A DNA stretch of 64,000 nt from an uncultured Clostridia bacterium (GTDB taxonomy: Bacteria; Bacillota; Clostridia; Oscillospirales; Ruminococcaceae): positions 1 to 64,000 of the forward strand of contig CANQWD010000007.1 of assembly GCA_947627465.1 (NCBI GenBank). Reading direction: 5' to 3'. The notes beneath the pieces were generated by a model that was not told the DNA's origin, made no database searches, and saw nothing but the letters and a program-made list of their open reading frames with translations. Each line of letters starts with the position of its first letter. The stretch's first letter is position 1. Made by a program: the position numbers and the translations under genes. Shown piece after piece: positions 31,727 to 49,874 of the stretch.

Positions 31727-31755
31727 CGGTCTGCTCTCCAAACGGTGGACTTCAC

Positions 31756-33078: not shown

Positions 33079-33171
33079 ATTATCACCCGCTTAACATTCA
33101 ATGATTTTCAAGTGGGAATCTCTAAAATCCGATTTTGTCTAAAACAAGTTTTTCAGAGATGTCCAAGCTAT

Positions 33172-33200
33172 ATTGTACCACAAATCCCCCGAAAAGTCAA
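33172..33200 (-). promoter_or_regulatory. Probable promoter of the Sel1-YgjP operon
   Basis: TTGACT (33200-33195), a 17-bp spacer and TACAAT (33177-33172). An inverted repeat TCCCCCG / CGGGGGA with a 17-nt loop overlaps the -35 region, a possible operator. Confidence 0.65.
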
Positions 33201-33249
33201 CGGCTTAACGGGGGAAATCTTACATTTGTCTTACATTTTGCGAAAACCG

Positions 33250-33278
33250 TTGACGTAAACGGAGAAAAGTGATATTAT
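33250..33278 (+). promoter_or_regulatory. Promoter of the VanZ gene
   Basis: TTGACG (33250-33255), a 17-bp spacer and TATTAT (33273-33278). The predicted transcript starts about 14 nt before GTG 33299, leaving just enough room for AGGTG. Confidence 0.7.
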
Positions 33279-33298
33279 GGTAACACGAGGTGAAATTT

Positions 33299-33880
33299 GT
33301 GAGAGATATTATCGAAACATTAAAATTTTACGGCTTTTTTGAAGCGGCGCCGCTGTCATTGATCGCGGTGCTGATATATTCATTGGCGCGCACCGCTTAT
33401 CTTAAGGCGGGAAATCATCCGCGCGCACGCGTTTCCGAAGAAATCGCGCGGGGGCTTTTGGTGTGGTATCTTATAACGCTTGTCGTTGTGGTATGGTTCA
33501 TATATTTGCCCGAACTGCTGTTTGGAAAGATATCGGTCGGGGACTTTTGCGAGATGACGTTTTTCCACGGCGAATACGCAAGCAACGGGCGTTTTGAGAA
33601 ACTTCTGCGCGGCGATTTTTCGGTGTTCAGCGACGGGGAATTCTGCGCGAATATTGCGCTGTTCGTCCCTTACGGAATACTGCTCCCGACCGCGTTCCGC
33701 CGCTTGAAGTGGTGGGCGGTCGATCTCGCCGCGCTTGGAACCACGCTTGTTATCGAGATCATTCAGCCGTTTTTCGGACGCTCCTGCGACCTCGACGACA
33801 TTATAGCGAACACTCTCGGCGCGGCGGTAGGGTGCGCGGCAGCTAAGCTTGTAATCACGCTCGCCAACCGCAAGGAATAG
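33299..33880 (+). CDS. VanZ-family membrane protein
   Basis: 193 aa from GTG 33299, preferred over GTG 33290 because GAGGTG lies 6-7 nt upstream of it. About four hydrophobic segments; the conserved VanZ pieces are NIALFVPYGILLP, VIEIIQPFFGR and SCDLDDIIANTLGAAVG. VanZ proteins are associated with low-level teicoplanin tolerance and cell-envelope processes; the biochemical role is not established. It is flanked by divergent and convergent genes and is probably transcribed alone. Confidence 0.88.
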   Translation: MRDIIETLKFYGFFEAAPLSLIAVLIYSLARTAYLKAGNHPRARVSEEIARGLLVWYLITLVVVVWFIYLPELLFGKISVGDFCEMTFFHGEYASNGRFEKLLRGDFSVFSDGEFCANIALFVPYGILLPTAFRRLKWWAVDLAALGTTLVIEIIQPFFGRSCDLDDIIANTLGAAVGCAAAKLVITLANRKE

Positions 33881-33919
33881 ATCGGCGCACAGAATTTTCA
33901 CGCGGCGGTCCGCAAAAAA

Positions 33920-34483
33920 TCACCGCTTTTTGCTGTCTCCGAGAATGGACGGCGCGACTTCGCTGTCTTTTTCAATGCGCCTGTTCATCCACTTCGGAAC
34001 ATTTACGATAAGCATAATGCCGATTGAAAGCAGCGTAATAAGCAGGCTCGGCATATAAAGCATAGTGGGTCCGCTGCTGTTGACGGGCTTGTAAAGCTCG
34101 ATGAAAAAACTATATGTTATCAAAGTCCCCGCCGCCGCGAAAACGTGTATCACGGCGGCTGTTTTTGTATGTCCGAGCATCATCACGAACATTCCGACAA
34201 CATAGAATATCGAGGATATCAGCCACCACAGCGCCGACGGGTCGGACGCCACCTCCGCTTCAACGATATCTCCGTTCCAAATGCAAAGCGGTCCGAATAT
34301 TCCCAAAACGAACGCGAAGATCGTCGTGACGATAAGCTCCAGCACCTTTAAAATTATCACGAAAACCTTGCCCGCGCCCGTACCTTGGTCTTTTGCGAAG
34401 AAGTAAAACGCTTCCTTTTCGTTCGCTTTTTCGGTTATGTTTTCCGCGCTTTTTTTAGGCGGCAGCTTGACTTGTTTTCCCAT
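33920..34483 (-). CDS. Four-helix membrane protein, unknown
   Basis: 187 aa; GGAGG lies before ATG 34483. A Lys/Glu-rich cytoplasmic N-terminus (1-35) is followed by four hydrophobic helices (about 42-65, 82-103, 110-128 and 140-163) and a charged tail. No family is recognised. It lies downstream of the TtcA-like gene on the same strand, with a CCCC/GGGG hairpin between them. Confidence 0.7.
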   Translation of the reverse strand: MGKQVKLPPKKSAENITEKANEKEAFYFFAKDQGTGAGKVFVIILKVLELIVTTIFAFVLGIFGPLCIWNGDIVEAEVASDPSALWWLISSIFYVVGMFVMMLGHTKTAAVIHVFAAAGTLITYSFFIELYKPVNSSGPTMLYMPSLLITLLSIGIMLIVNVPKWMNRRIEKDSEVAPSILGDSKKR

Positions 34484-34507
34484 ATTTCCTCCAAAATCAT
34501 ATCTCTC

Positions 34508-34533
34508 GTTTCTCCCCGCCGCTCGGGGAAAAC
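34508..34533. repeat. Intergenic CCCC/GGGG hairpin, copy 4
   Basis: In the leftward mRNA GTTTTCCCCG pairs with CGGGGAGAAAC (one bulge). It ends 24 nt before the start at 34483. Polarity is the same as in the other copies. Confidence 0.75.
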
Positions 34534-34534
34534 G

Positions 34535-35263
34535 TTATTCTTTATTCTTATATCCCCAACGGTCGATATCCGCTTTTCTCATCGCGCCGAAAATGCGCTG
34601 CTTCACTCCGTGATTGTTATGCTCAAGCTCCGCAAGAAACTCTTTCATCGACTGGCGCGTCGTGTGCTTATCGGCGGGGCATTTTGATTTTACTATCTCG
34701 AAACCGTTTCGTTTCGCGCAAGACGTGACCGCGTATTCGGGCGCGAAAACGAGCGGTCGGATAAGCGTGATGTCCTTTCGCGAAAGATACGAGCTTGGCG
34801 AGAAGCAGCCTATTCTTCCCTCTTGAAACAAGTTCATCATAAACGTTTCGATAGCGTCGTCGTAATTATGCCCGAGCGCTATTTTATTGCAGCCCGCTTC
34901 TTTTGCCGCGTCATGAAGCGCGCCGCGCCGCATTTTCGCGCACAGCGAGCACGGGTTCGGCTCTTTGCGGATATCGAAAACTATCTCGCCGATATCGGTC
35001 TTTATCAAGTTAAACTCAACGTCCAATTCCGCGCACATTTTTTCCACGGGCGAGTAGTCCGTTTCAACGCCGCCGAAGCGCGGGTCGAGCGTTACGCAAA
35101 CCACCTCGTACTTTTTCTCGTAAAATCTCCGCATTTTCGCAAGACCGCAAAGCAGCACGAGGCTGTCCTTACCGCCCGAAACGCCGACGGCTATCCTGTC
35201 GCCGTCCCCTATCAGATCGAATTCTTGACAGGCTCGGCGGATATAGCCCAATATTTTCTGCAT
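34535..35263 (-). CDS. TtcA-like tRNA 2-thiocytidine synthase family protein
   Basis: 242 aa. The N-terminal PP-loop GVSGGKDSLVLL binds ATP and adenylates the tRNA base. A CxxC (CSLCAKMRRG) and HNYDDAIETFMMNLF follow in the order seen in TtcA/TtuA-like proteins, where the cysteines hold an Fe-S cluster. Family members thiolate C32 or related tRNA positions. The exact base in Firmicutes homologs is uncertain. The ATG 35263 has GAGGGTGA upstream. It is read from a consensus promoter back-to-back with that of the VWA gene. Confidence 0.87.
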   Translation of the reverse strand: MQKILGYIRRACQEFDLIGDGDRIAVGVSGGKDSLVLLCGLAKMRRFYEKKYEVVCVTLDPRFGGVETDYSPVEKMCAELDVEFNLIKTDIGEIVFDIRKEPNPCSLCAKMRRGALHDAAKEAGCNKIALGHNYDDAIETFMMNLFQEGRIGCFSPSSYLSRKDITLIRPLVFAPEYAVTSCAKRNGFEIVKSKCPADKHTTRQSMKEFLAELEHNNHGVKQRIFGAMRKADIDRWGYKNKE

Positions 35264-35286
35264 TGTCTCACCCTCATTCTCTACTT

Positions 35287-35315
35287 ATTATAGTTCATTT
35301 TCTCTCCTATGTCAA
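35287..35315 (-). promoter_or_regulatory. Sigma-A promoter of the TtcA-like gene
   Basis: TTGACA (35315-35310), a 17-bp spacer and TATAAT (35292-35287) on the minus strand, giving a very short leader. Confidence 0.85.
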
Positions 35316-35335
35316 TAGTCTTTTTGCTTTTGCGA

Positions 35336-35364
35336 TTGACAAAGAACCTGTTTTGTCGTATAAT
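35336..35364 (+). promoter_or_regulatory. Sigma-A promoter of the VWA/ankyrin-LRR operon
   Basis: TTGACA (35336-35341), a 17-bp spacer and TATAAT (35359-35364). It is a full consensus match, divergent from the TtcA promoter with 20 bp between the -35 boxes, and produces a structured leader of about 245 nt. Confidence 0.88.
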
Positions 35365-35410
35365 ATAGTTGTATACTCAATTCAACCTTACTTAGCGCAG
35401 CCACCCCCGC

Positions 35411-35493
35411 GCTGCCGCGAACCGCCGCCGCAGGCGGCGCGGCGGCGACAGCCGCCGATTTTGCCGCGACAGCGGCAAAATGTTCGCGGCAGC
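35411..35493 (+). ncRNA. Perfect four-way-junction RNA fold in the VWA leader
   Basis: A 12-bp closing helix (35411-35422 with 35482-35493, GCTGCCGCGAAC / GTTCGCGGCAGC) encloses three adjacent hairpins with no unpaired base between them: 35423-35439 (7 bp, GCA loop), 35440-35457 (7 bp, GACA loop) and 35458-35481 (10 bp, GACA loop). All 36 pairs are Watson-Crick. A second nested hairpin follows at 35496-35559 (GGCGTTT with AAACGCC, GTCCGCC with GGCGGAC). It may be a leader RNA element or a mobile fold-back; no known riboswitch motif was recognised. Confidence 0.6.
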
Positions 35494-35614
35494 ACGGCGT
35501 TTCGGACGTCCGCCCCGAACGGAGCGCAAGCGGAGTGAGCGGGCGGCGGACAAAACGCCTCCGGGCGGGTGAAAACCTTGCAGGCTCCGCACAAAACCGA
35601 CAAGGAGAAAACAA

Positions 35615-36973
35615 ATGCTTGACGAAGTAACTCAAGAGAAAACGGAAAAAATAGCGCGGGAAATATTACAGAACGCGAAAAACAAACTTCTCGTAAATCT
35701 GCGCTTTCTGGATATGGCGCTCAGCCGTCCGAATCTCACCTCGGACGCGGAACACACGACCTCCTGCGCGACGGACGGCGAGATATTTATATACGCGCCG
35801 AAGTTCGTGCTGTCGACTTACCGCGTGGAACCCGATCTGGTGACACGGAATTTTCTGCACATGATATTTCACTGCGTATTTCGCCACATGTTCGTCAATA
35901 CGCTGATAGACAGAGAATTATGGGATATAGCGTGCGATATTGCCGTGGAGAGCGTGATAAACGACCTCAAACTCGATTACTTAACGACTCTTAAATCGTC
36001 GCAGCAGGAACAGTTTTTAAGCGGCTTCAAGAACAAGATAAAAACGCTTTCCGCGGAGAAGATCTATCGCTTTTTGCTTGATCAAAAACTTCCGCAAAAA
36101 ACGATCGACGGACTTGGCATGCTGTTCAAAGTGGATGACCATTTTCTTTGGTACCTCACTGAAGAACAAAAAGGAGCGCTCGGCTTAGGCAGCGGCGCAA
36201 ATCAAAACGGAGACGGCGAGGCTTTCTCCGTGAGCCGCTCCGCGCTTGCGGACGACTGGACGAGTATTGCCGAAAGTATGCAGATGGACTTGGAAACGTT
36301 CGGAAAACAGCGCGGCACGAAAGCGGGGCTTTTGACGCAAAATCTCCGCGAGGTGAACCGTGAACACTACGACTACACCGAATTTCTAAAAAAATTCGCG
36401 GTGCGCGGCGAAATTATGAAAATAAACCCCGACGAGTTCGACTACAACTATTACACCTACGGGCTTAGCTTATATGAAAACATGCCGCTTATCGAGCCGC
36501 TGGAATACAAGGACGTCAAAGCTATCCGAGAATTCGCAATAGCTATTGACACGTCGGGTTCCACGTCGGGAGAATTGGTTCAAAAATTCGTGCAGAAAAC
36601 CTACAATATCCTCAAAAACGCCGAGAGCTTTTTCACTAAAGTAAATATTCACATAATCCAATGCGACGCGGCAATTCAGGAGGATGTGAAAATCACCACG
36701 CAGGAAGAGTTTGACAATTATCTCAAAACCATGAAAATACACGGATTGGGCGGCACGGATTTCAGACCGGTGTTCAGCTATGTAAATTCGCTTATGGATA
36801 CGGGCGAGTTCTCGAATTTAAAAGGGCTTATTTATCTTACGGACGGCATGGGAGCGTTTCCCGCGAAAAAGCCCGATTACGACGCGGCGTTCGTGTTTAT
36901 CGACGACGAGCCGAACAACTACGACGTTCCCGCTTGGGCGATAAAACTGATTTTAAGGAGCGGCGAGATATGA
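35615..36973 (+). CDS. VWA/DUF2201-type protein with degenerate metallopeptidase motif
   Basis: 452 aa; AAGGAG upstream. The N-terminal domain (1 to about 150) matches the DUF2201 putative metallopeptidase region, but the zinc motif reads FLHMIFHCVFRH: the Glu of HExxH is Met, so hydrolysis is doubtful. A linker with EEFL-type helices follows, and then a VWA domain (about 305-452) with an intact MIDAS: DTSGS (312-316) and LTDGMG. Such proteins usually act with a MoxR AAA+ ATPase, which is absent here. The stop overlaps the start of the first ankyrin/LRR gene (ATGA), so the VWA protein and that family are made together. It is cytoplasmic. Confidence 0.85.
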   Translation: MLDEVTQEKTEKIAREILQNAKNKLLVNLRFLDMALSRPNLTSDAEHTTSCATDGEIFIYAPKFVLSTYRVEPDLVTRNFLHMIFHCVFRHMFVNTLIDRELWDIACDIAVESVINDLKLDYLTTLKSSQQEQFLSGFKNKIKTLSAEKIYRFLLDQKLPQKTIDGLGMLFKVDDHFLWYLTEEQKGALGLGSGANQNGDGEAFSVSRSALADDWTSIAESMQMDLETFGKQRGTKAGLLTQNLREVNREHYDYTEFLKKFAVRGEIMKINPDEFDYNYYTYGLSLYENMPLIEPLEYKDVKAIREFAIAIDTSGSTSGELVQKFVQKTYNILKNAESFFTKVNIHIIQCDAAIQEDVKITTQEEFDNYLKTMKIHGLGGTDFRPVFSYVNSLMDTGEFSNLKGLIYLTDGMGAFPAKKPDYDAAFVFIDDEPNNYDVPAWAIKLILRSGEI

Positions 36974-38238
36974 GGGAGCACTATTCCCTGAAAACTGAAT
37001 TCGGCAAACGGGACGAGCTTTTTAAAGCGATAATAACGCTTGACAAAAAGCGCGTTCGCGAACTGAAAAAGAGCGGCGCAGCGCTCACCGAAAACGTGCG
37101 CGGCGTTCTCGAAAACGGCGCGGGGCGCTCGGTAAGCGTGGAAAACCCCGCTTATCAATTTTGGTTCTCGCTGCTGCGCGAGATCAAAGAAACGCCGCTT
37201 AAAGACTTTGCGGAATTCGCCGCGCTGCTCCGCGCGGAGGTCGGCAAACCGCTCCACTACTCCGAGGCGTTGTGGGTGTGGGGAAACAAACGGGCGTTCG
37301 AGCCGCGATTTTTTGAAATAACGCTTGCGAATTTCAACCAAAAGAAAATGCCGAAAAAGATTGCTATGAAGCGAATTATAGACGAAAACAAGCTCGGCTG
37401 TCTGCCGATATGCGAGAAGCACGGCTGGCTAAAAAATCCGAAAACGCGCGACGAGCTTATCGACTACGCGACCGAACAGGGCAAAACGGAAATATCCGCG
37501 TGGTTGTTGGACTTCAAGAACCGCACCGCCGATCTCGCTTTGGAGCGCGAACGCGCCGAGAAGAAAATGCAGCGCGAACTCAACGCCGACCCGAACTCCA
37601 TTACCGAGTTGAGGAAGATTTGGAAATTTGAAAAACGCGAGGACGGTTCTATAATCATATTGGGCTACAAGGGCGACCGCAGGGAGATAATCGTTCCCGA
37701 AAAGATAGGCGGCTGTACCGTTACGGCACTCGGAGAATACGTATTCTCGCCTTATGCCAAACACATAAAAGCGGAACAGCGCGCTTTGCGGAAAGCGATT
37801 ACCAAGATCGTTCTGCCGGATACGATAGAGAGTATCGGGGAGTTTGCGTTTTATCAATGTAAGTCGCTGACGCGCATAAATCTCCCCGAAAGGCTCACCG
37901 AAATCACCAAGGGGATGCTTGACATCACGGGATTGGAAAGTATCGTTATCGGCGGTAACGTCAAGAAGATCGGCGGGGTGGCGTTTTGGGGCTGCCGCGA
38001 TCTCAGATATGTGAAGCTCTGCGAGGGAGTTGCCGAGATAGATGTGGCGGCGTTCTATAACTGCGGGAATTTGGAAACAATAGAGCTGCCGCGCTCGCTG
38101 AAAAAAGCGCCTCCCTGCACTATGTCCGAAAGCCCGTTTTGGAACTGCATAAAGCTCACAGCTTTGGTGCACAAAGGCACATACGCGGAGAAGTACTGCG
38201 AGGAAAACAAGATTATTTACAAATACGCGGAGGAATAA
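36970..38238 (+). CDS. Ankyrin-like/LRR paralog A
   Basis: 422 aa from ATG 36970, with AAGGAG upstream and ATGA overlap with the VWA gene. The N-terminal part has ankyrin-like helices (DELFKAIITLDKKRVRELKK); a second pair lies at about 135-175 (IIDENKLGCLPICEKHGWL, RDELIDYA). The conserved core LLDFKNRTADLALERERAEKK (about 178-198) leads to a C-terminal BspA-type LRR_5 domain (about 230-405; units such as IESIGEFAFYQCKSLTRINLP) and a cap ending GTYAEKYCEEN. No signal peptide or anchor, so intracellular, which is unusual for BspA-like LRRs. It is the founder copy of six tandem paralogs. Confidence 0.82.
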   Translation: MREHYSLKTEFGKRDELFKAIITLDKKRVRELKKSGAALTENVRGVLENGAGRSVSVENPAYQFWFSLLREIKETPLKDFAEFAALLRAEVGKPLHYSEALWVWGNKRAFEPRFFEITLANFNQKKMPKKIAMKRIIDENKLGCLPICEKHGWLKNPKTRDELIDYATEQGKTEISAWLLDFKNRTADLALERERAEKKMQRELNADPNSITELRKIWKFEKREDGSIIILGYKGDRREIIVPEKIGGCTVTALGEYVFSPYAKHIKAEQRALRKAITKIVLPDTIESIGEFAFYQCKSLTRINLPERLTEITKGMLDITGLESIVIGGNVKKIGGVAFWGCRDLRYVKLCEGVAEIDVAAFYNCGNLETIELPRSLKKAPPCTMSESPFWNCIKLTALVHKGTYAEKYCEENKIIYKYAEE

Positions 38239-38240
38239 TT

Positions 38241-40367
38241 ATGGAATACTACTCAATTTCAAGCGAATACGGAAACCGTGACGAGCTTTTCAAGGCTATC
38301 ATAACGCTTAACAAAAAGCGCGTCGAAGAATTAAAGGTGCGCGGCGTTACACTCACCGAGGACGTGAAAAACACAATGCTGAACGGCGGCGGCTCGTTTA
38401 TTTCGGGTTCGCCCGCGTCGGGGCTTTGGTACGGTTATCTTACCGACTTGGAGAGCGTCGCGAAGCTCGATTTTGTGTACATCTCGCGGGAGATATTCGC
38501 GCAGACGGGCGAACCGCTTTACTTTTCCAACTCGTTAGAGCAGGTGATAGCCAAATATTTTTTCAATCCCGACGTGTTTACTTGTCTGCTGGAGTGCTAC
38601 GACCAAAAAAAGCTGAACAAAACGCGGATAATGAAAGAGCTTATCCGCAAAAACAACGTTCCGCTTCTGGAAAAATGCGCCGAACACGGCTGGCTGAAGC
38701 AATCGAAAAAGCGCGACGAGATGATAGACTACGCCGCCGAACAGAACCGCCCCGAATGCACCGCGTGGTTTCTGGAATTTAAGAGCCGCACCGCAGACCT
38801 CGCCGCCGAACGCAAAAAAGCCGAAAAGAAACAGCTCGCCGAGCTGAACGCCGCGCCCGATTCCGCTCTTGAACTCAAAAAAATCTGGAGCTGGGAAAGG
38901 GGCGAGGACGGCGGACTTATCATCAAAAGCTACAAGGGCGAGGAAACCGAGGTTACAATTCCTTCCAAAATCGGGAAGAATTTCGTGACGGCGATAGCCG
39001 ATTACGCGCTCTCCCCCGCCGCTCCGCGGCTAAAGGACGACCGCATAAAAAGCCGCGCCGACATAAAAAAGATCACCGTGCCGACCGGCGTCAAACGAAT
39101 AGGCGAATACGCGTTCGGCGGCAACGGATATATGTGGCAAAGAGTCACCTCATCGCTTTCGGAACTGATACTCCCCGAAACGCTTGAGATATTCAACGAC
39201 AGGCAAGCCGCGGAAACCGCGCCGCGTTTTCTCGCAAAGTGCGGCATAGATGTTCTCGTCGTGCCCGACACGCCCGCCGCGCGGTGTTACTGTATAAAAA
39301 ACGACATCAAATTCCGCTTTGAAGAGGGCGGCGAAATACATATCCCGTTTAAAGAGATCATCAAATCGGACGAGCTGTTTGCCGCGATACTCGCTGTCGA
39401 TAAAGAAAAAGTCGAAAAGCTGAAAGGCTCGGGCTTTACGGACTATATCAAAGAATGTCTGCAAAAGGAGCTTTACGGAATTATGTACTCCGTTCACCGG
39501 GAAATTGCGGAAGTTATCGCAAACGCGAACGCCGACGACAGGCTGTTTATTTTGCAAAACCTGACCGCCGAACTCGGCGAAAAGCTTTACTGCAACAACC
39601 ACATTCACGGGTTATTATACAGAAAGCCCGAGCTGTGGGACTGCGTGCTGAAAATTTTCGATACGAAACGCCTTAACAAAACGGACGAGATGAAACGCTT
39701 TATCAAAAACAATCAAGTGGAGTATCTCGCGGTATTCGCGGAAAACGGCTGTCTTAAAAATTCCGCGACACGCGACAAACTTATAAAATACGCCTCTGAC
39801 AACAACAAGACTGAAGCTCTCGCGTGGCTTCTCGATTACAAAAGCCGCACCTCCGACCCCGAAAAAGAACGAAAACGCGCCGAGAAAAAACTTGAACGCG
39901 AGCTGAATGCGGCGCCGCCCACGGAAGAAGAACTTCGCGAAAAGTCGAACAAGCTGTTTAAGAGAATGTTCACATACGAGATTGCAGACGGCGAAGTCAC
40001 AATAACGGGCTACAAGGGGAGCGCCGAGGAAGTAGAAATTCCTCGGGAGTTTGAGGGCAAGCCCGTTGTCGCTATCGGCAAGCAGGCGTTTTATCCGCAA
40101 GGCTCGGGAGTTCCAACGCGTCACAGACACAACCGCGCTAACGTCAAAAGGGTAGTATTCCCCGACACGGTTCGGACAATCGGCGAGATGGCGTTTTTAG
40201 GGTGCAACGCCTTGCGTGAAGTCGTTATACCAAGCTCCGTGACGGAAATCGGGGCGCGGGCGTTCTTTACGTCCGTGGCGATAACGTTCACCGTGGAGCG
40301 CGGCTCGTTAGCCGAAAAATACTGCAAGGCAAACGGAGAAAAAATCGTGTATAAGGTGAGCCTATGA
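38241..40367 (+). CDS. Ankyrin-like/LRR paralog B (two fused units)
   Basis: 708 aa from ATG 38241 (GGAGG 8 nt upstream, 2 bp after the previous stop). It contains two complete units: residues 1 to about 370 (ankyrin-like helices, core FLEFKSRTADLAAERKKAEKK, short LRR part ending TPAARCYCIKND) and about 375-708, starting again with SDELFAAILAVDKEKVEKLK, with core LLDYKSRTSDPEKERKRAEKK and LRR part ending GSLAEKYCKAN. The joint looks like fusion of two tandem genes by loss of a stop codon. It overlaps paralog C by ATGA. Confidence 0.82.
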   Translation: MEYYSISSEYGNRDELFKAIITLNKKRVEELKVRGVTLTEDVKNTMLNGGGSFISGSPASGLWYGYLTDLESVAKLDFVYISREIFAQTGEPLYFSNSLEQVIAKYFFNPDVFTCLLECYDQKKLNKTRIMKELIRKNNVPLLEKCAEHGWLKQSKKRDEMIDYAAEQNRPECTAWFLEFKSRTADLAAERKKAEKKQLAELNAAPDSALELKKIWSWERGEDGGLIIKSYKGEETEVTIPSKIGKNFVTAIADYALSPAAPRLKDDRIKSRADIKKITVPTGVKRIGEYAFGGNGYMWQRVTSSLSELILPETLEIFNDRQAAETAPRFLAKCGIDVLVVPDTPAARCYCIKNDIKFRFEEGGEIHIPFKEIIKSDELFAAILAVDKEKVEKLKGSGFTDYIKECLQKELYGIMYSVHREIAEVIANANADDRLFILQNLTAELGEKLYCNNHIHGLLYRKPELWDCVLKIFDTKRLNKTDEMKRFIKNNQVEYLAVFAENGCLKNSATRDKLIKYASDNNKTEALAWLLDYKSRTSDPEKERKRAEKKLERELNAAPPTEEELREKSNKLFKRMFTYEIADGEVTITGYKGSAEEVEIPREFEGKPVVAIGKQAFYPQGSGVPTRHRHNRANVKRVVFPDTVRTIGEMAFLGCNALREVVIPSSVTEIGARAFFTSVAITFTVERGSLAEKYCKANGEKIVYKVSL

Positions 40368-41911
40368 ATTACAGATATATACCTCAGGAAAACAAAGCCG
40401 AGATATTGGAAAACGCCGTGATAAACGGTTCTTCCGAGGAAATTGCGGCGGCTTTCAAGGAACTCGGATATATAGAAATGACGGCGCGGGCTTTGGGTCT
40501 GGCGTGCCGTTTTCGCGGAGTTGAGACCGTGAAAACGCTTGCGGAAAACGGCGCGACGTTTAAAATTCCGAAAACCGAGGAGGCGGAGCAGCGATACCAT
40601 TGCTACTCCGGAGCGAAACAGAGCAACTACCGTTCAAACTTCGCGCTGTATCTTCTTAACATAACAAAGCACATTAAAGGCGCTTGCTGCTGCAAAGGCT
40701 TGAAGCTCACGAAAAAAGCGGCGCGGCGCGACAAAACTTTTCTGAACCAACTGACCGACGGCGAACGCGCCGAGGTTTTGAGATACCTTTGCGAAAACGC
40801 GGAAAAGCTGTCGTTTTCGCCCGAGGAAACGCTGTACTATGCGATATTCGCGCGGGACGAATTTATAGCGTCGGAACTGAAAAAGCTCGGTGTGAAGCTC
40901 TCGGAAAAGCGCGTAAATATTATGACGAACGGCGGACCGATTTCGGACGGATATTGGTTTGAATGGTGCTCGATGCAAGGAAAGCTGCCGAACGACGACT
41001 ATATTCCCGTAATGAAAACGATAGCCGCGGAGCTTAATGGAGAGCGGTTTCACTGCACGGGAAAAGTTTACGATCTGACTAAAACGCGCTTTGAAAACAC
41101 GGAAATTCTGGAATTCTTCCGCGACAATTTCAAAATCGCGCGGCTTAACAAAACGCAGATAATCCGCGACGTTATCAACATGAACAATCCCGGCGCGCTC
41201 GTTGTTTTTGAGCGGCTGGGGTGGCTTTCCGATATTCGGCGGCGCGACGAGATGATAGACTACGCGCAAAAGCTCGGCGACAGAACGGAGTGTGTGGCGT
41301 GGCTTCTTGATTTCAAGAACCGCACCGCCGATCTCGCCGCCGAACGCGCCAAAGCCGAAAAGAAAATGGAAGCGGAACATAACGCAAGCCCGACCTCCGT
41401 TGTTATAATGAAAAAGACTTGGGGATATAAAAAACGCGAGGACGGCACACTTATCATCACGAGTTACAAGGGCACAAGCACCAACGTAAGAGTACCCGAA
41501 AAGATAGGCAAAGGCACCGTCGCGGCGATAGGCATGGGAGCGTTCTCGGGGAACAGCGGAATGTGCGGCGGCAGAGTTACGACCTACGCTTCATACGATC
41601 AGCAAAGGCAGCGCCGCACGATAACGAAGATAACTTTGCCCGAGACCGTGAATTTTATAGATAACAGCGCGTTCGCGGATATGGAAGCGCTCACGGAGAT
41701 AAATATTCCCGAGGGAGTTACGGAAATAGGCGGCGTGGCGTTTTATCAATGTCTGTCGCTGGAAACGCTCGTTATTCCAAGCTCGGTGGAGCGTATCGGG
41801 GTGTACGCGTTTCGGAACTGCGGCAAACTCACGGCTATCGTGGAGCGTGGCTCGTTCGCCGAAAAATACTGCAAGGAAAACGGAATTAAATTCAAATATA
41901 AGGAGCAATGA
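40364..41911 (+). CDS. Ankyrin-like/LRR paralog C (long N-terminal subtype)
   Basis: 515 aa. It differs from A, B, D and E by an additional N-terminal ankyrin-like region (about 20-70, with ARALGLACRFRGVETVKTL) and a following helical stretch to about 240. The conserved core LLDFKNRTADLAAERAKAEKK (about 310-330) and LRR_5 C-terminus (about 360-510, VTEIGGVAFYQCLSLETLVIP) are shared with the others. Paralog F has the same subtype. Starts within an ATGA overlap. Confidence 0.82.
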   Translation: MNYRYIPQENKAEILENAVINGSSEEIAAAFKELGYIEMTARALGLACRFRGVETVKTLAENGATFKIPKTEEAEQRYHCYSGAKQSNYRSNFALYLLNITKHIKGACCCKGLKLTKKAARRDKTFLNQLTDGERAEVLRYLCENAEKLSFSPEETLYYAIFARDEFIASELKKLGVKLSEKRVNIMTNGGPISDGYWFEWCSMQGKLPNDDYIPVMKTIAAELNGERFHCTGKVYDLTKTRFENTEILEFFRDNFKIARLNKTQIIRDVINMNNPGALVVFERLGWLSDIRRRDEMIDYAQKLGDRTECVAWLLDFKNRTADLAAERAKAEKKMEAEHNASPTSVVIMKKTWGYKKREDGTLIITSYKGTSTNVRVPEKIGKGTVAAIGMGAFSGNSGMCGGRVTTYASYDQQRQRRTITKITLPETVNFIDNSAFADMEALTEINIPEGVTEIGGVAFYQCLSLETLVIPSSVERIGVYAFRNCGKLTAIVERGSFAEKYCKENGIKFKYKEQ

Positions 41912-41913
41912 TT

Positions 41914-43317
41914 ATGGAACTTTCCGACGATCTTTACGCGGTTGTTTTACAATGCGATTTTAAAGCGGCTGACGATATGATAAAGGCGGGCGCGGCGCTT
42001 GACGAGGACACGAAAAAGGCTCTTACGGAGGGCGTGGGGAAAGATACGGAGGACGGATCTAAAAAACGTTTAAAACGTTTGGCAATACGTCTGGTGTTTG
42101 ATAAATTTATCGAGGGCGCTTCGGCGGAAGATTTCGCCGCGGTTTCCGAAAAGCTGTCGGAACTGGTCGGCAAACCGCTTTTTTACCACTATAACGATTT
42201 TCATTACGCGTTTTTTCTGCATAATTACTACGACCCGTTAATCTTTGAAACGATACTTAAATGCTATAACGGCAAATCAATGCGAAAACAAGCGACTATG
42301 CAGGAGATAATCGACCAAAATAACGTGAATCTGCTCGGGATATGCGCGAAGTACGGTTGGCTGAAAATGCCGAAGATCCGCGACGCTATGATAGATTACG
42401 CGAACAAGCAAAACAGACCGGAATGCACCGCGTTTCTTTTGGATTTCAAGAACCGCACCGCCGACCTCGCCGCCGAACGCGAACGCGCCGAGAAGCGTAT
42501 GCTTCGAGAGATGAACGCAAATCCAAATTCGCTCGCCGAGCTTAAAAAGGTTTGGCGGTTTACAAAGCTTGAAGACGGAACTCTTGAAATAACAAGCTAC
42601 AAGGGCAAGCAAACGGAAGTTGTCGTGCCCGAAAAAATAGGAAAGGACACGGTGACTTCAATAGGAAACGGGGCGTTTACGGGAAATATCGGGAGAGCAA
42701 AAAGAACGCCGCGCGAAATATGCAATTTCCGACAAGGGAAAATCACTAAGATAACCCTGCCCGAGACTATAAGCAACATCGGCGAGGGCGCGTTCGACCA
42801 CTGCTTGGCGCTTACCGAAGTGAATATTCCGGGCGGCGTTAAGGTCGTGAGAAGCGGCGTGTTTACGTACACGGCGATCGAGGTTTTGCGGCTTCCCGAA
42901 ACGGTAGAGGAGATCGCCGACTATGCGTTCTCGGGCGGGAAATTCAAAGAGTTGATACTGCCGAAAGGACTTAAATTTCTCGGCAAGGCGGCGTTTGATT
43001 GGTGTACGTTCGAGCGTATCGAGATACCCGAAAACATATCCGTGATAATGCAGGGAACTTTTTGGGGATGTAAAAAGCTGAAAGAGGTCGTGCTGCCCGA
43101 GGGTATGGAAACGATAAAAGCCCGTGCGTTCTGGACCTGTCCTGAACTTGAAACAATAAACCTCCCCGCCTCGATAAAGAAAATCGAGAACTACAAGCGC
43201 GGCGGCAAAATTCACAACGCTTTCACGGACAGTCCGAACCTCACCGCAACGGTGGAACGCGGCTCTTACGCGGAAAAATACTGCATTAAAAACCATATTG
43301 CATATAGGAGCGAGTGA
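41914..43317 (+). CDS. Ankyrin-like/LRR paralog D
   Basis: 467 aa from ATG 41914, preferred over the ATG at 41908 because AAGGAG is then at normal distance. A short N-terminal ankyrin-like unit (DDLYAVVLQCDFKAADDMIKAG), a divergent helical part, the core LLDFKNRTADLAAERERAEKR (about 179-199), and the longest LRR_5 region of the array (about 230-440, at least six units), capped by GSYAEKYCIKN. Cytoplasmic. Confidence 0.82.
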   Translation: MELSDDLYAVVLQCDFKAADDMIKAGAALDEDTKKALTEGVGKDTEDGSKKRLKRLAIRLVFDKFIEGASAEDFAAVSEKLSELVGKPLFYHYNDFHYAFFLHNYYDPLIFETILKCYNGKSMRKQATMQEIIDQNNVNLLGICAKYGWLKMPKIRDAMIDYANKQNRPECTAFLLDFKNRTADLAAERERAEKRMLREMNANPNSLAELKKVWRFTKLEDGTLEITSYKGKQTEVVVPEKIGKDTVTSIGNGAFTGNIGRAKRTPREICNFRQGKITKITLPETISNIGEGAFDHCLALTEVNIPGGVKVVRSGVFTYTAIEVLRLPETVEEIADYAFSGGKFKELILPKGLKFLGKAAFDWCTFERIEIPENISVIMQGTFWGCKKLKEVVLPEGMETIKARAFWTCPELETINLPASIKKIENYKRGGKIHNAFTDSPNLTATVERGSYAEKYCIKNHIAYRSE

Positions 43318-43318
43318 T

Positions 43319-44338
43319 ATGGACGAGCTTCAAAAATACGCGCTCTCAACGGACAAAAGCTATTCTCCAAGCGCGGACGAGCAAGACAAGATAACAAAGA
43401 TACAGTACGAGTTCTGTGTGAAAATGCAGAACGCCGAGGAAAGCGAGTTTATAGAGACCGCAAGAAAAGTCCGCGCCGAGTTGGGCTTTCCTATTCTCTA
43501 TTTCAAGTCTGTCTTCAAAAGCGGCGTTCCGAAAAGCATTGAGAGCGCGGCCGTTCTGGAATGCGTTATCGAGTGCTTTGACTGCTCTCAAATTAACAAG
43601 AAAAAACTGATGCAAAATTACATAGATGTAAACCGCCTTGATTTGCTTGAAATTTGTGTCAAGCACGGGTGGCTTGCGCAGCCGAAAAAGCGCGACGAGC
43701 TCATTTTCTACGCGAACGAAAAATGCAGAACGGAAGCCGCGGCATACTTGCTTGAATTCAAGAACAGCACCGCCGACCTCAAAACCGAACGCAAAAAAGC
43801 CGAGAAAAAGCTCGAACGCGAATTAAACGCCGACCCGAATTCGGTCTCGGAATTGAAAAAGAGCTGGCGATTTGACAAGCTCGGCGACGGCACGCTTATC
43901 ATTCTCGGCTATAAGGGCGGACGCTCGGAAATTTACGTGCCGAAAACGATCGGGCAAAATACCGTTACGGCAATCGGAAACGGCGCGTTTTCGCCGCTGC
44001 AAACGCGAATTTCTCAACAACGTTTCGATTTTCGAATGAACGGCATAACTAAAATCACGCTCCCCGAAACGATAAAGCTTATCGACCCGTTTGCGTTCAG
44101 CGCCTGTCGCGCTCTGCGTGAAGTCGTTTTGCCGAAGGGTCTTACCGACATCGGCTATCACGCGTTTTACGATTGTGAAGCGCTCGAAAAGCTCACACTC
44201 TCGGGCGGCGTGAAATATATCGCCGAAGAGACGTTCGCGGCATGCCCGAAGCTTACCGTGTATGTAAGACGCGGAAGTCACGCGGAACGCTATTGCCGCG
44301 AAAGGGGCGTTCGGTTTGAGATAAGGGAGGACGAATGA
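43319..44338 (+). CDS. Ankyrin-like/LRR paralog E (shortest)
   Basis: 339 aa from ATG 43319, with AGGAG upstream and 1 bp after the previous stop. The N-terminus lacks the LFKAI helix pair and begins DELQKYALSTDKSYSPSADE. The remaining helices, the core LLEFKNSTADLKTERKKAEKK (about 142-162) and a four-unit LRR_5 region with cap GSHAERYCRERG are conserved. The decayed remnant at 45764-45934 is closest to this copy. Overlaps F by ATGA. Confidence 0.82.
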   Translation: MDELQKYALSTDKSYSPSADEQDKITKIQYEFCVKMQNAEESEFIETARKVRAELGFPILYFKSVFKSGVPKSIESAAVLECVIECFDCSQINKKKLMQNYIDVNRLDLLEICVKHGWLAQPKKRDELIFYANEKCRTEAAAYLLEFKNSTADLKTERKKAEKKLERELNADPNSVSELKKSWRFDKLGDGTLIILGYKGGRSEIYVPKTIGQNTVTAIGNGAFSPLQTRISQQRFDFRMNGITKITLPETIKLIDPFAFSACRALREVVLPKGLTDIGYHAFYDCEALEKLTLSGGVKYIAEETFAACPKLTVYVRRGSHAERYCRERGVRFEIREDE

Positions 44339-45762
44339 GTAAGGAACTTAAACCGTGGGAAAAAATCGACAAACTTGAACAGAGCGTTATGCAGGACAGC
44401 GCGGACGATGTGGCGGCGCTTTATGACGCACTCGGCAAGGTTCCGTTTACGGCGCAGGCTTTGGGGCTTGCGTGCCGCTATCGCGGGCTTGAAACCGTCA
44501 AGGTCTTGGCGGAACGCGGCGCGGCGTTCACGTTCGATTTGGCTGAACTTAAGCCCGTTCACTTGGGGAGATCGCGGTATTTTTGGCTGGAACTTTACGG
44601 CGACGAGAACTACTCGTTCGGACTGTTGAGCGATGTCAAGCGCCGCGAAACGTATGAACTGAACAACATAGGCAAAATGCACTGCGGTGTTAGTCTCGTT
44701 TCGTTAAGCGAACGTTTGAAAACGCTTGATTATCTTCTCGAAAACGCGGAGAAACTCGGCTTCAAGGCTGACGAGTTTTTGTTTTACGCTTATCTCTCCG
44801 ACGAACGCGAGATGATAGATTTTCTGAAAAGCAAAGGCGTTCGCGCGTCGGAGCGGCTTCTCAAAATAATCACCGAGGGTGCAAACAACGACGATTGGCT
44901 AAACTACTGCTATATCGTCGGAAATCTCCCCGATGATAAGTTTTTCCGCGTAATGGGCGCGATCGTCGAGGAGTGCGCCGAGCAAATGCCCGGTCGTAAG
45001 CTGCACTTCACGGAGAAGCTTTGGGAGTACAACGAGAGACGTTTTGTCGAGAAGCCCGAATTTCTCAAATTTCTGCTCCTACATTTCAATCAGGCGAAAA
45101 TCAACAAAACCAAATTGATGAAGAAAATTATCGATCGTGATAACGTTCCTTGCCTTGAAATCGCGGCGGAAAACGGTTTACTCAAACAACCGCGAAAGCG
45201 CGACGAGATGATAGATTACGCGAACGAAAAAAACGCGGTTGAATGTACGGCGTGGCTTTTGGACTTCAAGAATCGCACCGCAGACCTCGCCGCCGAACGT
45301 GCCAAAGCCGAGAAAAAACTTGAACGCGAACTAAACGCGAACCCTAATTCCGCATCGGAACTCCGAAAAGTCTGGAGCTTCAAAAAGCGCGGGGACGGTA
45401 CGCTCGAAATTACGAACTACCGCGGAAACTCGACAAAGATAATCGTTCCCGCGAAAATAGGAAAAAGCGCGGTGACCGCGATAGGCAAGGAAGCGTTTTC
45501 ACCGTTTCGCGACAGAGTATGCCACGGTCGCGAGTTCTTCAGGACGATCACCGAAATAACGCTGCCCGACGGCATTGTCGAGATCGGCGAAATGGCGTTC
45601 GACAACTGTCTCGCGCTGACGGCAGTCGTTGTTCCGAAAAGCGTCTCTGTTATCGGCAAAGCGGCGTTCGCCAACTGCAAGGGGCTGACCGTAACTGTCG
45701 AGCGCGGCTCTTACGCCGAGGAGTACTGCAAAGAAAACGGCGTTAAATTTAAGGACAAATAA
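44335..45762 (+). CDS. Ankyrin-like/LRR paralog F (long N-terminal subtype)
   Basis: 475 aa. Same subtype as C: DVAALYDALGKVPFTAQAL then ALGLACRYRGLETVKVL at about 30-60, a helical extension to about 220, the core LLDFKNRTADLAAERAKAEKK (about 304-324), and only two or three LRR_5 units with cap GSYAEEYCKEN. It is the last intact gene of the array, and a truncated relative follows directly. Confidence 0.82.
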   Translation: MSKELKPWEKIDKLEQSVMQDSADDVAALYDALGKVPFTAQALGLACRYRGLETVKVLAERGAAFTFDLAELKPVHLGRSRYFWLELYGDENYSFGLLSDVKRRETYELNNIGKMHCGVSLVSLSERLKTLDYLLENAEKLGFKADEFLFYAYLSDEREMIDFLKSKGVRASERLLKIITEGANNDDWLNYCYIVGNLPDDKFFRVMGAIVEECAEQMPGRKLHFTEKLWEYNERRFVEKPEFLKFLLLHFNQAKINKTKLMKKIIDRDNVPCLEIAAENGLLKQPRKRDEMIDYANEKNAVECTAWLLDFKNRTADLAAERAKAEKKLERELNANPNSASELRKVWSFKKRGDGTLEITNYRGNSTKIIVPAKIGKSAVTAIGKEAFSPFRDRVCHGREFFRTITEITLPDGIVEIGEMAFDNCLALTAVVVPKSVSVIGKAAFANCKGLTVTVERGSYAEEYCKENGVKFKDK

Positions 45763-45763
45763 A

Positions 45764-45970
45764 GCGGACGGACTTCACAAATTTACGCTCTCGACAGACA
45801 AAAGCCATTCTCCCGGCGAGGACGAACAAGCTGCGATCGCTAAAATACAATACGAATTTTGCGTAAAAATGCAAAAAGCTCCCGAGGAAGAATTTATCGA
45901 GACTGCGCGTGAATTGCGTAGGAACTCGGCGTGAATGTTGGACTGCTCGAACCCCTCCCGAAAATAATTC
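45764..45970 (+). pseudogene. Remnant of a seventh ankyrin/LRR paralog
   Basis: Starting 1 bp after the stop of F, the frame 45764-45934 reads LHKFTLSTDKSHSPGEDEQ and then IQYEFCVKMQKAPEEEFIET, clearly matching the start of paralog E. The start codon and ribosome binding site have been lost, and a frameshift near 45920 precedes the stop; ELGVNVGLLEP continues the homology in another frame to about 45960. The rest of the gene is missing. Confidence 0.85.
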
Positions 45971-45981
45971 GCGGATTGCGC

Positions 45982-46011
45982 TTGACTAACTCAACCCTTT
46001 GGTGCTATAAT
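45982..46011 (+). promoter_or_regulatory. Promoter of the cation-efflux gene
   Basis: TTGACT (45982-45987), an 18-bp spacer and TATAAT (46006-46011), about 52 nt before the start codon. Confidence 0.75.
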
Positions 46012-46063
46012 TAGAAAAGCGCATATAATGTAAGAAGCGTTCAACAAATCAGGGGGTGCGGCA

Positions 46064-47218
46064 ATGACCGAATTACTCATCAAACGATTTATCAAAGACG
46101 GCGACGACCGCTCCGCTTACGGAAAAATGGCGGGGAAAGTCGGGATAGCGTGCAACGTGCTTTTGTGTATCGGCAAATTTATCGCGGGCGTTTTGTCGGG
46201 AAGTCTGTCGATCTCGGCGGACGCGGTGAACAACCTTTCCGACGCTTCTTCAAGCATAATCAGCCTTATAGGTTTCAAACTTTCGGAAAAGTCCGCGGAC
46301 AGCGAACACCCTTACGGTCACGGGCGGTACGAGTACCTCGCGGGATTTATGGTCGCCGCGCTCATTATCGTTATCGGCGCGGAACTTTTACGCGACAGTA
46401 TACGGAAAATCATTGCTCCCACCGAAGTGATCTTCGGCATAGTGCCGTTGGTCGTGCTTATCGTTTCGATACTGGTTAAACTCTGGATGATGCATTTTTA
46501 TCGTAAAATAGCGCGGAAAATAAACTCCGATACTCTTAAAGCCTCCGCCGCCGACAGCCGCAACGATGTTTTCTCTACCTCTGCGGTTCTGACAGCGCTT
46601 ATCATCGCGCATTTCGCCAATATAAACCTCGACGGCATAATGGGCGCGGCGGTCGCGGTTTTCATTCTGATAAGCGGCATAGGTCTTGTCAAGGAAACGC
46701 TCGACCCTCTGCTCGGAAAAGCGCCGAGCGCGGAAACGGTCGAGGAGATACGCGCGAAAATTCTCGCTTATGACGGCGTGCTCGGAACTCACGACCTTAT
46801 GGTGCACGACTACGGTCCGGGTCGGAAGTTCGCGTCGGTACATGTCGAGGTATCTGCGGACCTGACGCTGGTTGAATGTCACGACATTATTGATAAAATA
46901 GAACGCGATTTTCTGAAAGGCGGGCTTAATATGCTCGTCCACCCCGACCCCGTGTCCTCGGACGGCGCTTCGGAACTTGTCGGCGGGGTTCTTAAAGAAA
47001 TAGACGAACGCATTACGTTCCACGATTTGAGAGCCATTGGTTCGCCGCCCTTAAAAGTGCTTTTCGACTGCGTTCTTCCGCCGAATTGTCCGAGTACTCA
47101 CGACGAAATAACCGCCGCCGTTTCGGAAAAATTGAACGAAAAGTTTGAGGGCTGCCGCGCCGTTATAACGTTTGACGACGGCTACGCTAGCATTCCGCAA
47201 ACTTCTCATCAAGAATAA
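46064..47218 (+). CDS. Cation diffusion facilitator (CDF) metal efflux protein
   Basis: 384 aa; GGGGGTG upstream. Six transmembrane helices (within 20-215) carry the metal-site motifs SADAVNNLSDASSS (helix 2) and HPYGHGRYEYLAG, with DSRNDVFSTSAVL (helix 5) completing the Asp/His set. A cytoplasmic C-terminal domain follows (HDLMVHDYGPGRKFASVHVEV) and an extra C-terminal extension of about 80 residues. It exports divalent ions (Zn, Fe or Mn) in exchange for protons. It is monocistronic with a terminator. Confidence 0.93.
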   Translation: MTELLIKRFIKDGDDRSAYGKMAGKVGIACNVLLCIGKFIAGVLSGSLSISADAVNNLSDASSSIISLIGFKLSEKSADSEHPYGHGRYEYLAGFMVAALIIVIGAELLRDSIRKIIAPTEVIFGIVPLVVLIVSILVKLWMMHFYRKIARKINSDTLKASAADSRNDVFSTSAVLTALIIAHFANINLDGIMGAAVAVFILISGIGLVKETLDPLLGKAPSAETVEEIRAKILAYDGVLGTHDLMVHDYGPGRKFASVHVEVSADLTLVECHDIIDKIERDFLKGGLNMLVHPDPVSSDGASELVGGVLKEIDERITFHDLRAIGSPPLKVLFDCVLPPNCPSTHDEITAAVSEKLNEKFEGCRAVITFDDGYASIPQTSHQE

Positions 47219-47220
47219 CA

Positions 47221-47250
47221 AAACCGCCGCTCACCCGAACGGCGGTTTTT
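47221..47250. terminator. Bidirectional terminator
   Basis: A 9-bp stem AAACCGCCG / CGGCGGTTT (47221-47229 with 47240-47248) with T-runs on both strands, between the convergent efflux and LRR genes. Confidence 0.9.
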
Positions 47251-47253
47251 GTA

Positions 47254-48090
47254 TCAGAAAATAACATTGCAATTCGGCAGCTTTTCGCGCAGCAGCTTAA
47301 TATCATCTTCGGAAGTGTTTTGCAGTTCTGTGACGTCAAGTTCCTCTAAATTTGTAAACTCGAACAGCACGTCAAATTTTTTCAAGGCGCAGTTGTACAA
47401 CTCCAGCTTTCGCAGCTTTTGAAAATCCTTTATCGGCGAAAGTTCCAAATCGTTCGTCCAGCTTAAATTCAACTCCTCCAAATTCGGGAGCGATATCAGC
47501 GGATCGAGTTTCGTTGAAAAACACAGGCTGCTTAGATCGAGTTTTCGCAAATTCACAAGTTCGGAGAGCGGCCGGACGGTTTTCGTCGCCAACTGCAAAA
47601 GACACAATTCTTCAAGCTGCGTTAGCGTGCCGATAAGTTCCAGATCGTCTAAACTGTCGGATATATCCAAATCGCGGAGACGGCGAAGTTTGGGCAGCTT
47701 TTTCAGCGGCTCAAGGCTTTTATACGCGCAGCTAACGTCCAGATATTCGAGCGGCAAGCCCTCAAGCGGCGAGATGTCGCGCAGTTCCTCGCAGTCGAGA
47801 ACGAGAGAACGCAATTCGGACAGCGTTGACAGCGGCTTGATACTTTGGACGGAAGTGCCCGAAAGGTTCAGTTCGGTGAGTTTTGCGAGTTTGGCAAGCG
47901 GCTTTATGTCTGTCAAGTCAAGGTTGTTCAACAGATTCAGCGAACGCAGTTCGGTAAGCACCGCAAGCGGAGAGATATCGGTAACGTCCGCCCACGAGAG
48001 GTCTAACTCCGTTATTTTCTCCGGGTGTTCAAGTCCGCTTATCCACTCGCGCAGTTCGCTGTCGGTAAAATCTTGGAATTTGAATTTCAT
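47254..48090 (-). CDS. Intracellular internalin/SDS22-type leucine-rich repeat protein
   Basis: 278 aa from ATG 48090 (AGGTGA upstream). About nine LRR units of 21-23 residues with the pattern LTELNLSGTSVQSIKPLSTL, typical of the bacterial SDS22-like class, and a short helical N-terminal cap (FQDFTDSELREWISG). No signal peptide or anchor, so an intracellular binding protein of unknown partner. This LRR class differs from the BspA type in the array at 37-46 kb. It is 5 bp downstream of the small zinc protein gene. Confidence 0.85.
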   Translation of the reverse strand: MKFKFQDFTDSELREWISGLEHPEKITELDLSWADVTDISPLAVLTELRSLNLLNNLDLTDIKPLAKLAKLTELNLSGTSVQSIKPLSTLSELRSLVLDCEELRDISPLEGLPLEYLDVSCAYKSLEPLKKLPKLRRLRDLDISDSLDDLELIGTLTQLEELCLLQLATKTVRPLSELVNLRKLDLSSLCFSTKLDPLISLPNLEELNLSWTNDLELSPIKDFQKLRKLELYNCALKKFDVLFEFTNLEELDVTELQNTSEDDIKLLREKLPNCNVIF

Positions 48091-48095
48091 AGCCG

Positions 48096-48299
48096 TCACC
48101 TGAATAATGTGCAGTGTCCGCTTTTGCGGTAATAGTCGATACGCGCCTGTATGACCTCGCGCGTGGTTCGGTAATATTTCGCAAGGCAGTCGATACAGAA
48201 AAACTCTTGGACGTTACGCGAGATCAGCTTTTGATTTATCGCGATATCGTCCGAGCCGAGTTTTGCGCCGCACTCCTTGCAGGTTTTCCAGTTTGCCAT
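48096..48299 (-). CDS. Small zinc-ribbon protein
   Basis: 67 aa. Two Cys pairs, CKECG (near residue 8) and CIDC (about 34), make a probable zinc ribbon, followed by a basic helix (YYRTTREVIQARIDYYRKSG). No family is assigned. Adjacent to, and probably translated with, the LRR gene. Confidence 0.7.
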   Translation of the reverse strand: MANWKTCKECGAKLGSDDIAINQKLISRNVQEFFCIDCLAKYYRTTREVIQARIDYYRKSGHCTLFR

Positions 48300-48321
48300 A
48301 GTGATTTCTCTCTAATAATAT

Positions 48322-48343
48322 CTCTCCCCCGTTGGGGGGAGAG
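48322..48343. repeat. Intergenic CCCC/GGGG hairpin, copy 5
   Basis: A perfect 9-bp stem CTCTCCCCC / GGGGGAGAG with a 4-nt loop, 22 nt upstream of the zinc-ribbon start in the leftward mRNA, pyrimidine arm first. Confidence 0.75.
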
Positions 48344-48353
48344 GAAATTTTTA

Positions 48354-49574: not shown

Positions 49575-49607
49575 ATCGTTTATTTCTCCTTAATTTTTCG
49601 TTGCGCG

Positions 49608-49691: not shown

Positions 49692-49706
49692 TGCCGCTTT
49701 AGTTTA

Positions 49707-49735: not shown

Positions 49736-49769
49736 GGCTTTTTCTAATTTTTTTATATGGGTAACAACG

Positions 49770-49873: not shown

Positions 49874-49874
49874 T

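Follow-up and report, generated by a model that had tools for sequence, protein, structure and literature searches.

A 64,000-nucleotide stretch from an uncultured Clostridia bacterium of the Ruminococcaceae (GenBank assembly GCA_947627465.1, contig CANQWD010000007.1, positions 1 to 64,000; hereafter the window) carries on its forward strand a gene for a DUF2201-type von Willebrand factor A (VWA) protein, followed by an operon-like array of leucine-rich repeat (LRR) genes. With confidence that is evenly balanced, we propose a three-component MoxR-VWA system, in which a MoxR-type ATPase and the VWA protein would form a remodelling machine and the LRR proteins would be interchangeable adaptors docking via one module. 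The VWA gene (35615..36973, +) precedes six co-directional array genes, all on the + strand, that make up seven units and extend to position 45762. These are A (36970..38238; ankyrin-like helices, core and LRR_5 domain), B (38241..40367; two fused units, as seen from two core matches), C (40364..41911; with a long N-terminal ankyrin-like region), D (41908..43317; with the longest LRR domain by repeat pattern), E (43319..44338; ATG start, with a possible alternative TTG start at 43298) and F (44335..45762). A and C are supported by Pfam matches and unit alignment, D by Pfam and repeat count, and E by an open reading frame (ORF) with a Pfam match. ATGA overlaps join VWA/A, B/C, C/D and E/F, and gaps of 2 nt and 1 nt separate A/B and D/E, respectively. 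Behind F lies an eighth, truncated unit (about 45764..45934, +), the start of an E-like gene that reads KADGLHKF...RELRRNSA before a stop codon. These coordinates confirm what an earlier note had read from the letters of this DNA: one VWA gene, six paralogs comprising seven units and a remnant, all on one strand.

The VWA protein matched DUF2201 (46.5 bits; cut-off 26.4) and DUF2201_N (34.1 bits; cut-off 23.2) in Pfam. Its DUF2201_N domain, of a putative metallopeptidase family but lacking the catalytic glutamate, is followed by a VWA domain with a metal ion-dependent adhesion site (MIDAS). In alignments of 15 and 34 sequences, H82, H86, H91, D312, S314, S316, T381 and D410 were invariant, the MIDAS residues being among them. 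We collected relatives by a scan of genome contigs and compared the 80 most similar of at least 574 loci, which came chiefly from uncultured Clostridia and also from cultured members such as Ruminococcus flavefaciens and Alkalibacter mobilis. Among the 81 VWA ORFs of these best 80 loci, the DxSxS motif of the MIDAS was present in 80 (the exception is a 73-residue fragment), HxxxHxxxxH in 79 (the other two are fragments) and HExxH in none. HExxH is the signature of zincins; the corresponding motif in the window is HMIFH, from which the glutamate of HExxH is absent. Since the DUF2201_N histidines are kept and the glutamate is lost, this domain is likely structural or metal-binding only.

All six array proteins contain an LRR_5 domain (41.0-139.8 bits; Pfam cut-off 27.7), and an alignment of the seven units has 46 invariant columns, in agreement with the earlier claim of a conserved core and a C-terminal BspA-type LRR domain in every unit. 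A simple repeat pattern, which overlooks degenerate repeats, counted two repeats in A, two in all in B, three in C, seven in D and two each in E and F. The N-terminal helices that had been called ankyrin-like are present as such, but the label is weaker than stated, as no ankyrin Pfam family matched the array proteins above its cut-off (best Ank_2, 21.0 bits versus 27.3). When the genome was searched with F as a single sequence, the part before residue 318 matched within this array only; the matches elsewhere were to the LRR part. The highest 11-residue hydropathy within the first 45 residues did not exceed 1.12 in A-F and was 1.31 in the VWA protein, so these N-termini do not resemble signal peptides. 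For comparison, of 11 LRR_5 ORFs from eight other loci of the genome, six reached 2.16-2.81 and so had hydrophobic N-termini; of the other five, three were cut by the locus edge (0.63, 1.18 and 1.28) and two were uncut (1.57 and 1.18). By this measure, which is hydropathy alone and not the output of a signal-peptide predictor, the array proteins are probably cytoplasmic, as had been predicted from their apparent lack of signal peptides. A reading of the array as secreted adhesins was rejected on the same grounds. The units share with BspA-type LRR_5 proteins a domain above the Pfam cut-off and differ from them in lacking an export-like N-terminus and in being joined to an ankyrin-like module.

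This module is a 56-residue segment of the core with the iterated-profile consensus KKRILEAAIDNDDAEALSLLLEEGLITAKDIDELIEYASKNGATECTAFLLDYKNR. Of 91 LRR proteins encoded no more than 4 kb from a VWA or ATPase gene, 73 (in 49 of 57 loci) have the module, as do 5 of the 769 other ORFs of those loci, two of them between the VWA and ATPase genes and one directly after the ATPase gene. None of the 91 sequences matched when reversed, and the module was not found in the eight other LRR loci of this genome. A strict motif expression failed to tell LRR proteins near these genes from distant ones (29/91 versus 3/14) and was replaced by the profile. Counted by locus, the module occurred within 6 kb in 56 of the best 80 loci and in 22 of the 33 with full flanks. 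On contigs outside the training set, it matched L061, L062, L064, L066 and L068 and, weakly, L070; it was absent from L067 and L069 and from L071 and L072, whose DUF2201-like proteins keep HExxH. More distant VWA proteins (genomes G061 and G103; 27-34% identity, DUF2201-like by similarity) share the adjoining MoxR-like gene but retain HExxH (HEVLH, HEILH) and have no module protein beside them. Solved-structure profile searches gave chance-level matches only (best E 0.045 and 0.04). L061, which comes from another family of the order, encodes an LRR protein with a BRCT domain (35.0 bits, cut-off 21.3) and, beside it, a 1206-residue protein with a sub-threshold BRCT match of 19.3 (9871-12024 and 13595-17212, respectively; -).

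Following weak core matches, we found a second array in this genome (G000, C5:19075-22489; L170:9076-12490). It consists of four tandem LRR genes whose products (261-301 residues, with N-termini that are not export-like) have the LRR first and the module last. The array sits behind two large proteins that we take, by eye, to be EAL-like. A longer array of this second type is present in G028, and G014 and G020, which have no full core array, gave three matches each.

No MoxR gene was found in the fetched stretch around the array. The distant MoxR gene that the earlier note had envisaged does exist: a MoxR-type AAA+ gene with the motifs GAPGIGKT and FLDEIN lies on another contig of this genome (C22:35246-36754) and is 75% identical to the G020 copy. 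With this ATPase in the genome, the VWA protein is half of a MoxR pair, and the lone VWA hub suggested earlier was rejected. The ATPase P0008 of a relative, 75% identical to the C22 copy, matched AAA_5 (32.9 bits; cut-off 22) and stayed under the cut-off for bpMoxR (22.7 bits versus 27). In relatives, the VWA gene usually lies near a gene for a 504-residue MoxR-type AAA+ protein. Among the 13 VWA-bearing congeners, the ATPase matched near full length in 11, distantly in G016 (residues 2-299) and only by a generic 26% match in G039, whereas it was found in none of the 10 tested of the 30 VWA-less congeners. Over 10 genomes, the identity of the VWA protein rises and falls with that of the ATPase (r 0.92, Mantel p 0.0002); the two partners are inherited together, as in the NorQ-NorD type. 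In G016, divergent VWA and MoxR-like genes (L070:10645-17716, -) adjoin genes for three other proteins, an AAA/AAA_lid_6 protein and two more, one of these two having the weak module match; the two proteins scanned against Pfam had no LRR.

In this genome and in G024 and G026, the ATPase gene lies apart from the VWA gene and the array and is flanked by unrelated genes. A gene that we take to be flavoredoxin-like, named by eye, directly follows the ATPase gene in G000, G024, G026 and G028, and also in G020 and G014, where the VWA gene is just upstream. The simplest reading of this arrangement would be that an ancestral operon lost the VWA gene and the array to another site but kept the ATPase gene.

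The association of the three gene types recurs in relatives. Within 6 kb and on the strand of the VWA gene, the best 80 loci contained the ATPase in 66 cases, an LRR protein in 58 and both in 47; for the 33 loci whose flanks extend 6 kb or more on each side, the corresponding numbers were 29, 25 and 21. Extending the distance to 10 kb brought the ATPase to 32 of these 33. Loci of the cultured Ruminococcus flavefaciens (L128 and L132) and Alkalibacter mobilis (L160) contain all three components. On the opposite strand, an LRR protein was found within 6 kb in 2 of the 80 loci. The LRR test used a single-sequence profile, which divergent LRRs may escape. The VWA-plus-LRR neighbourhood proposed in the earlier note is thus found well beyond this genome. 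Beyond the VWA, ATPase, LRR and core proteins themselves, every gene family was confined to 8 or fewer of the 70 loci compared. Of 398 genomes drawn evenly across the phylum, 8 matched at E 1e-20, counting the window's own and one partial match. In close relatives, one or two small genes lie between the VWA gene and the array (L052:5241-6175, L053:7130-8058 and L054:11641-12177), the second of those in L052 having a weak likeness to Imm1 immunity proteins (21.0 bits; cut-off 22.4). An array unit of G026 (L053:11321-12585) is divided by a stop into two open pieces. We considered a mobile element as the carrier and rejected it: 40 phage records had a match, and of the eight listed, seven are fecal contigs labelled 'Bacteriophage sp.', short and unannotated (34-53% identity), and the eighth matched at 25%; 6 plasmid matches were at 24-25%, and 10 IMG/VR matches were at 24-39% over parts.

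Within the genus, the VWA gene is present in 13 of 43 congeners, and core units number ten in G039 but none in G014, the two extremes. Mapped on an rpoB tree that covers 26 of the 27 congeners at least 90% complete (G004 was left out), the distribution of the VWA gene needs 6 changes, at least 5 of which are forced. With a profile of the second-array C-terminus, the module of either array type was detected in 12 of 13 VWA-bearing congeners and in 3 of the 30 others, all three being less than 90% complete; among the 27 congeners above that level, it was present in 9 of 10 with the VWA gene and in 0 of 17 without. The earlier note had regarded the pairing as vulnerable to VWA genes without an array beside them and arrays elsewhere. 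Such cases exist as exceptions to a general association: G033 has a VWA-ATPase pair without an adjoining unit on a 7.3-kb contig and its units on other contigs, and G014 has a second-type array only. G006 (L059) is a further exception, with the VWA and ATPase genes divergent from the array in an inversion-like arrangement.

Comparison with G039 showed that gene F is chimeric. Its N-terminal part is 76% identical to unit 9 of G039 and 30% to unit 7, whereas its LRR is 89% identical to unit 7 and 46% to unit 9. The switch is best placed at base 45187 (residue 284), inside the core and just before the conserved RDEMIDYA; from there to about 45354 both G039 units are similar to F, and the bases past F keep matching G039, into the unit next after its unit 7. 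Gene F thus looks like a recombinant of two units joined inside the core. Among 44 cross-genome comparisons in which both parts were at least 60% identical, 40 pointed to the same unit and 3 disagreed strongly, two of which are orthologues and possibly reflect one event. Synonymous divergence (dS) from G039 was lower in A, B and C (0.42-0.49) and in the LRR of F (0.36) than in the VWA gene, D, E and the N-terminal part of F (0.91-1.45); two flanking genes had 0.68 and 0.83. Given this mosaic dS, some array segments have probably passed between lineages since the split from G039. The ratio of nonsynonymous to synonymous divergence (omega) ranged from 0.05 to 0.16 in the core and from 0.13 to 0.38 in the LRR, the value for the LRR of F being computed against its non-matching G039 unit 9; C is the exception to the order of the two, with the LRR (0.125) below the core (0.151). 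No tested region reached an omega of 1, and positive selection on the LRR was rejected accordingly. The earlier idea that the LRR modules diversify therefore holds for module exchange and copy number but not for accelerated sequence change.

Upstream of the VWA gene, a sigma-70-type promoter-like site (35336..35364, +; TTGACA-17-TATAAT) agrees with the consensus at 12 of 12 positions. The single promoter postulated before is plausible only, because such sites are overabundant in the stretch (22 versus 7.7 in shuffled sequences), with one 11/12 site within A. On the - strand, a second and divergent site, also 12/12, begins at 35315, giving a back-to-back pair (35287-35364) between the VWA gene and a gene that we take, by eye, to be ttcA-like. 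A GC-rich 5' leader (35395..35600, +) has copies 73-76% similar at three other places in the genome (twice on C36 and once on C31). An RNA element was considered and rejected, as no Rfam family matched in 30000-50000, the leader included. Downstream of the array, beyond a presumably FieF-like gene, the - strand encodes an LRR protein (47254-48099) of a different LRR type by eye.

In the mechanism that we propose, the MoxR AAA+ protein encoded on C22 and the VWA/DUF2201 protein would constitute one ATP-driven remodelling machine, and the cytoplasmic LRR proteins would be its exchangeable adaptors. Each adaptor would dock by the common ankyrin-like module and select a different client with its LRR surface; recombination in the core would then swap LRR ends between docking ends, so that the client set changes and the fit to the machine is kept. 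The precedent is NorQ-NorD, where the MIDAS of the VWA protein is reported to bind the target and ATP hydrolysis to remodel it (PMC9976466, PMC13036017). Characteristic of this type of pair are a VWA protein inserted into the AAA+ ring and a MIDAS bound to an acidic residue in the target. By analogy, the pair may act on clients brought by the LRR adaptors; complex formation, docking, client binding, remodelling and a role of swapping in client choice are all predicted on this basis.

Several observations weigh against this proposal. Among the 33 well-flanked loci, a LRR match within 6 kb was missing in 8 and a module match in 11, and the module profile was iteratively trained on the same proteins that were counted. 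Relatedness inflates the co-occurrence of VWA gene and module: of 5 independent contrasts on the rpoB tree, 4 agree, none opposes and one is uninformative (p 0.125), too few for significance. Common descent also raises the correlation of VWA and ATPase identities. As for the ancestral operon, no flavoredoxin-like neighbour of the ATPase gene was found in other unsplit loci fetched (for example, G021, G041 and G018), so this layout rests on two unsplit genomes; G028, whose array runs off its contig and whose ATPase contig is 3.2 kb long, was left out of the judgement on splitting.

Coincidence of an unrelated VWA gene with LRR genes in an LRR_5-rich genome (57 matches) would leave the strand bias unexplained, with LRRs in 58 loci on the VWA strand and in 2 on the other. 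Moreover, the 6-kb surroundings of all LRR_5 matches, both strands counted, cover no more than about 10% of the bases of this genome, an estimate made for this one genome with hand-grouped clusters. At the level of gene neighbourhood, chance is thus refuted and seems to us extremely improbable. Alternatively, the LRR/ankyrin-like proteins could be clients, which the MoxR-VWA pair folds or assembles into a cytoplasmic scaffold. One core common to all would allow one chaperone to serve all, and MoxR-VWA pairs do mature specific targets (PMC9976466). Alone, this idea leaves unexplained why LRR ends are exchanged while the core stays constant and why a second array with reversed domain order exists elsewhere in the genome, and we regard it as unlikely.

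The main rival is a conflict or immune system, working as has been proposed for MoxR-vWA ternary conflict systems: phage or other foreign proteins would be detected by the LRR arrays, and the MoxR-VWA pair would then set a threshold or trigger a response. It ranks first among the rivals because the variable copy number, patchy distribution and module exchange would fit it; the mosaic dS, with the exchange between lineages that it suggests, and the beta-propeller class of ternary systems, which in the available text of PMC7159879 likewise has no conventional effectors, are further points in its favour. However, the VWA protein ends about 10 residues past the VWA domain, no effector domain was found in the Pfam scan of the VWA and array proteins, and padloc gave no match for either and only weak ones for the ATPase of a relative (best IetA, 22.3 bits). 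Nor did any defence family recur beside the VWA gene in the 70 loci, and omega was below 1 throughout. The defence role that the earlier note had left possible has thus gained nothing from these searches, and we consider it rather unlikely. Our adaptor proposal could also be extended to a cytoplasmic LRR receptor repertoire in Clostridia, reshuffled at a fixed docking core and read by one MoxR-VWA ATPase, as an analogue of diversifying LRR receptor families; this is a tentative, rather doubtful extension. If the LRRs bind foreign proteins, the array would amount to a cytoplasmic recognition repertoire.

The closest described relatives are the MoxR-vWA ternary conflict systems, which have the same core of MoxR AAA+ and vWA proteins with a system-specific third component (PMC7159879, PMC8195603). 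The third components named in the available text are VMAP, iSTAND, FtsH and beta-propeller proteins (PMC7159879) and iSTAND2 and TERNS3 (PMC8195603), and the beta-propeller class resembles our system in having a variable third component and no conventional effector (PMC7159879). In contrast, the third component here is an LRR_5/ankyrin-like protein, sometimes in tandem arrays, and the VWA protein carries DUF2201_N and no effector. VMAP, iSTAND, FtsH and beta-propeller domains were not detected by Pfam in the VWA and array proteins, and because the effectors and known third components of ternary conflict systems were sought and not found, we did not class the system with them. The main text of PMC7159879 contains neither 'leucine' nor 'ankyrin', and 'LRR' once, in a reference on LRRK2; among the matches listed in open PMC text, we found no description of a MoxR-VWA-LRR/ankyrin set. 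We place the system among MoxR-VWA machines by its presumed mode of action, set apart by a third part that is LRR/ankyrin-like and of a kind that we did not find described. It would represent an apparently new class of MoxR-VWA system, recurrent in Clostridia and with a clear part list, whose candidate docking module of 56 residues is small enough to test and which offers a visible route to changes in specificity. With NorQ-NorD, CbbQ-CbbO and RavA-ViaA it shares an AAA+ protein with Walker motifs and a VWA partner that has kept its MIDAS (PMC9976466, PMC13036017). Those chaperone pairs, as the available parts of the same papers present them, are tied to one target each (nitric oxide reductase, rubisco and fumarate reductase), whereas here one VWA gene is associated with many paralogous LRR proteins; a machine with many adaptors would let target choice be dissected directly.

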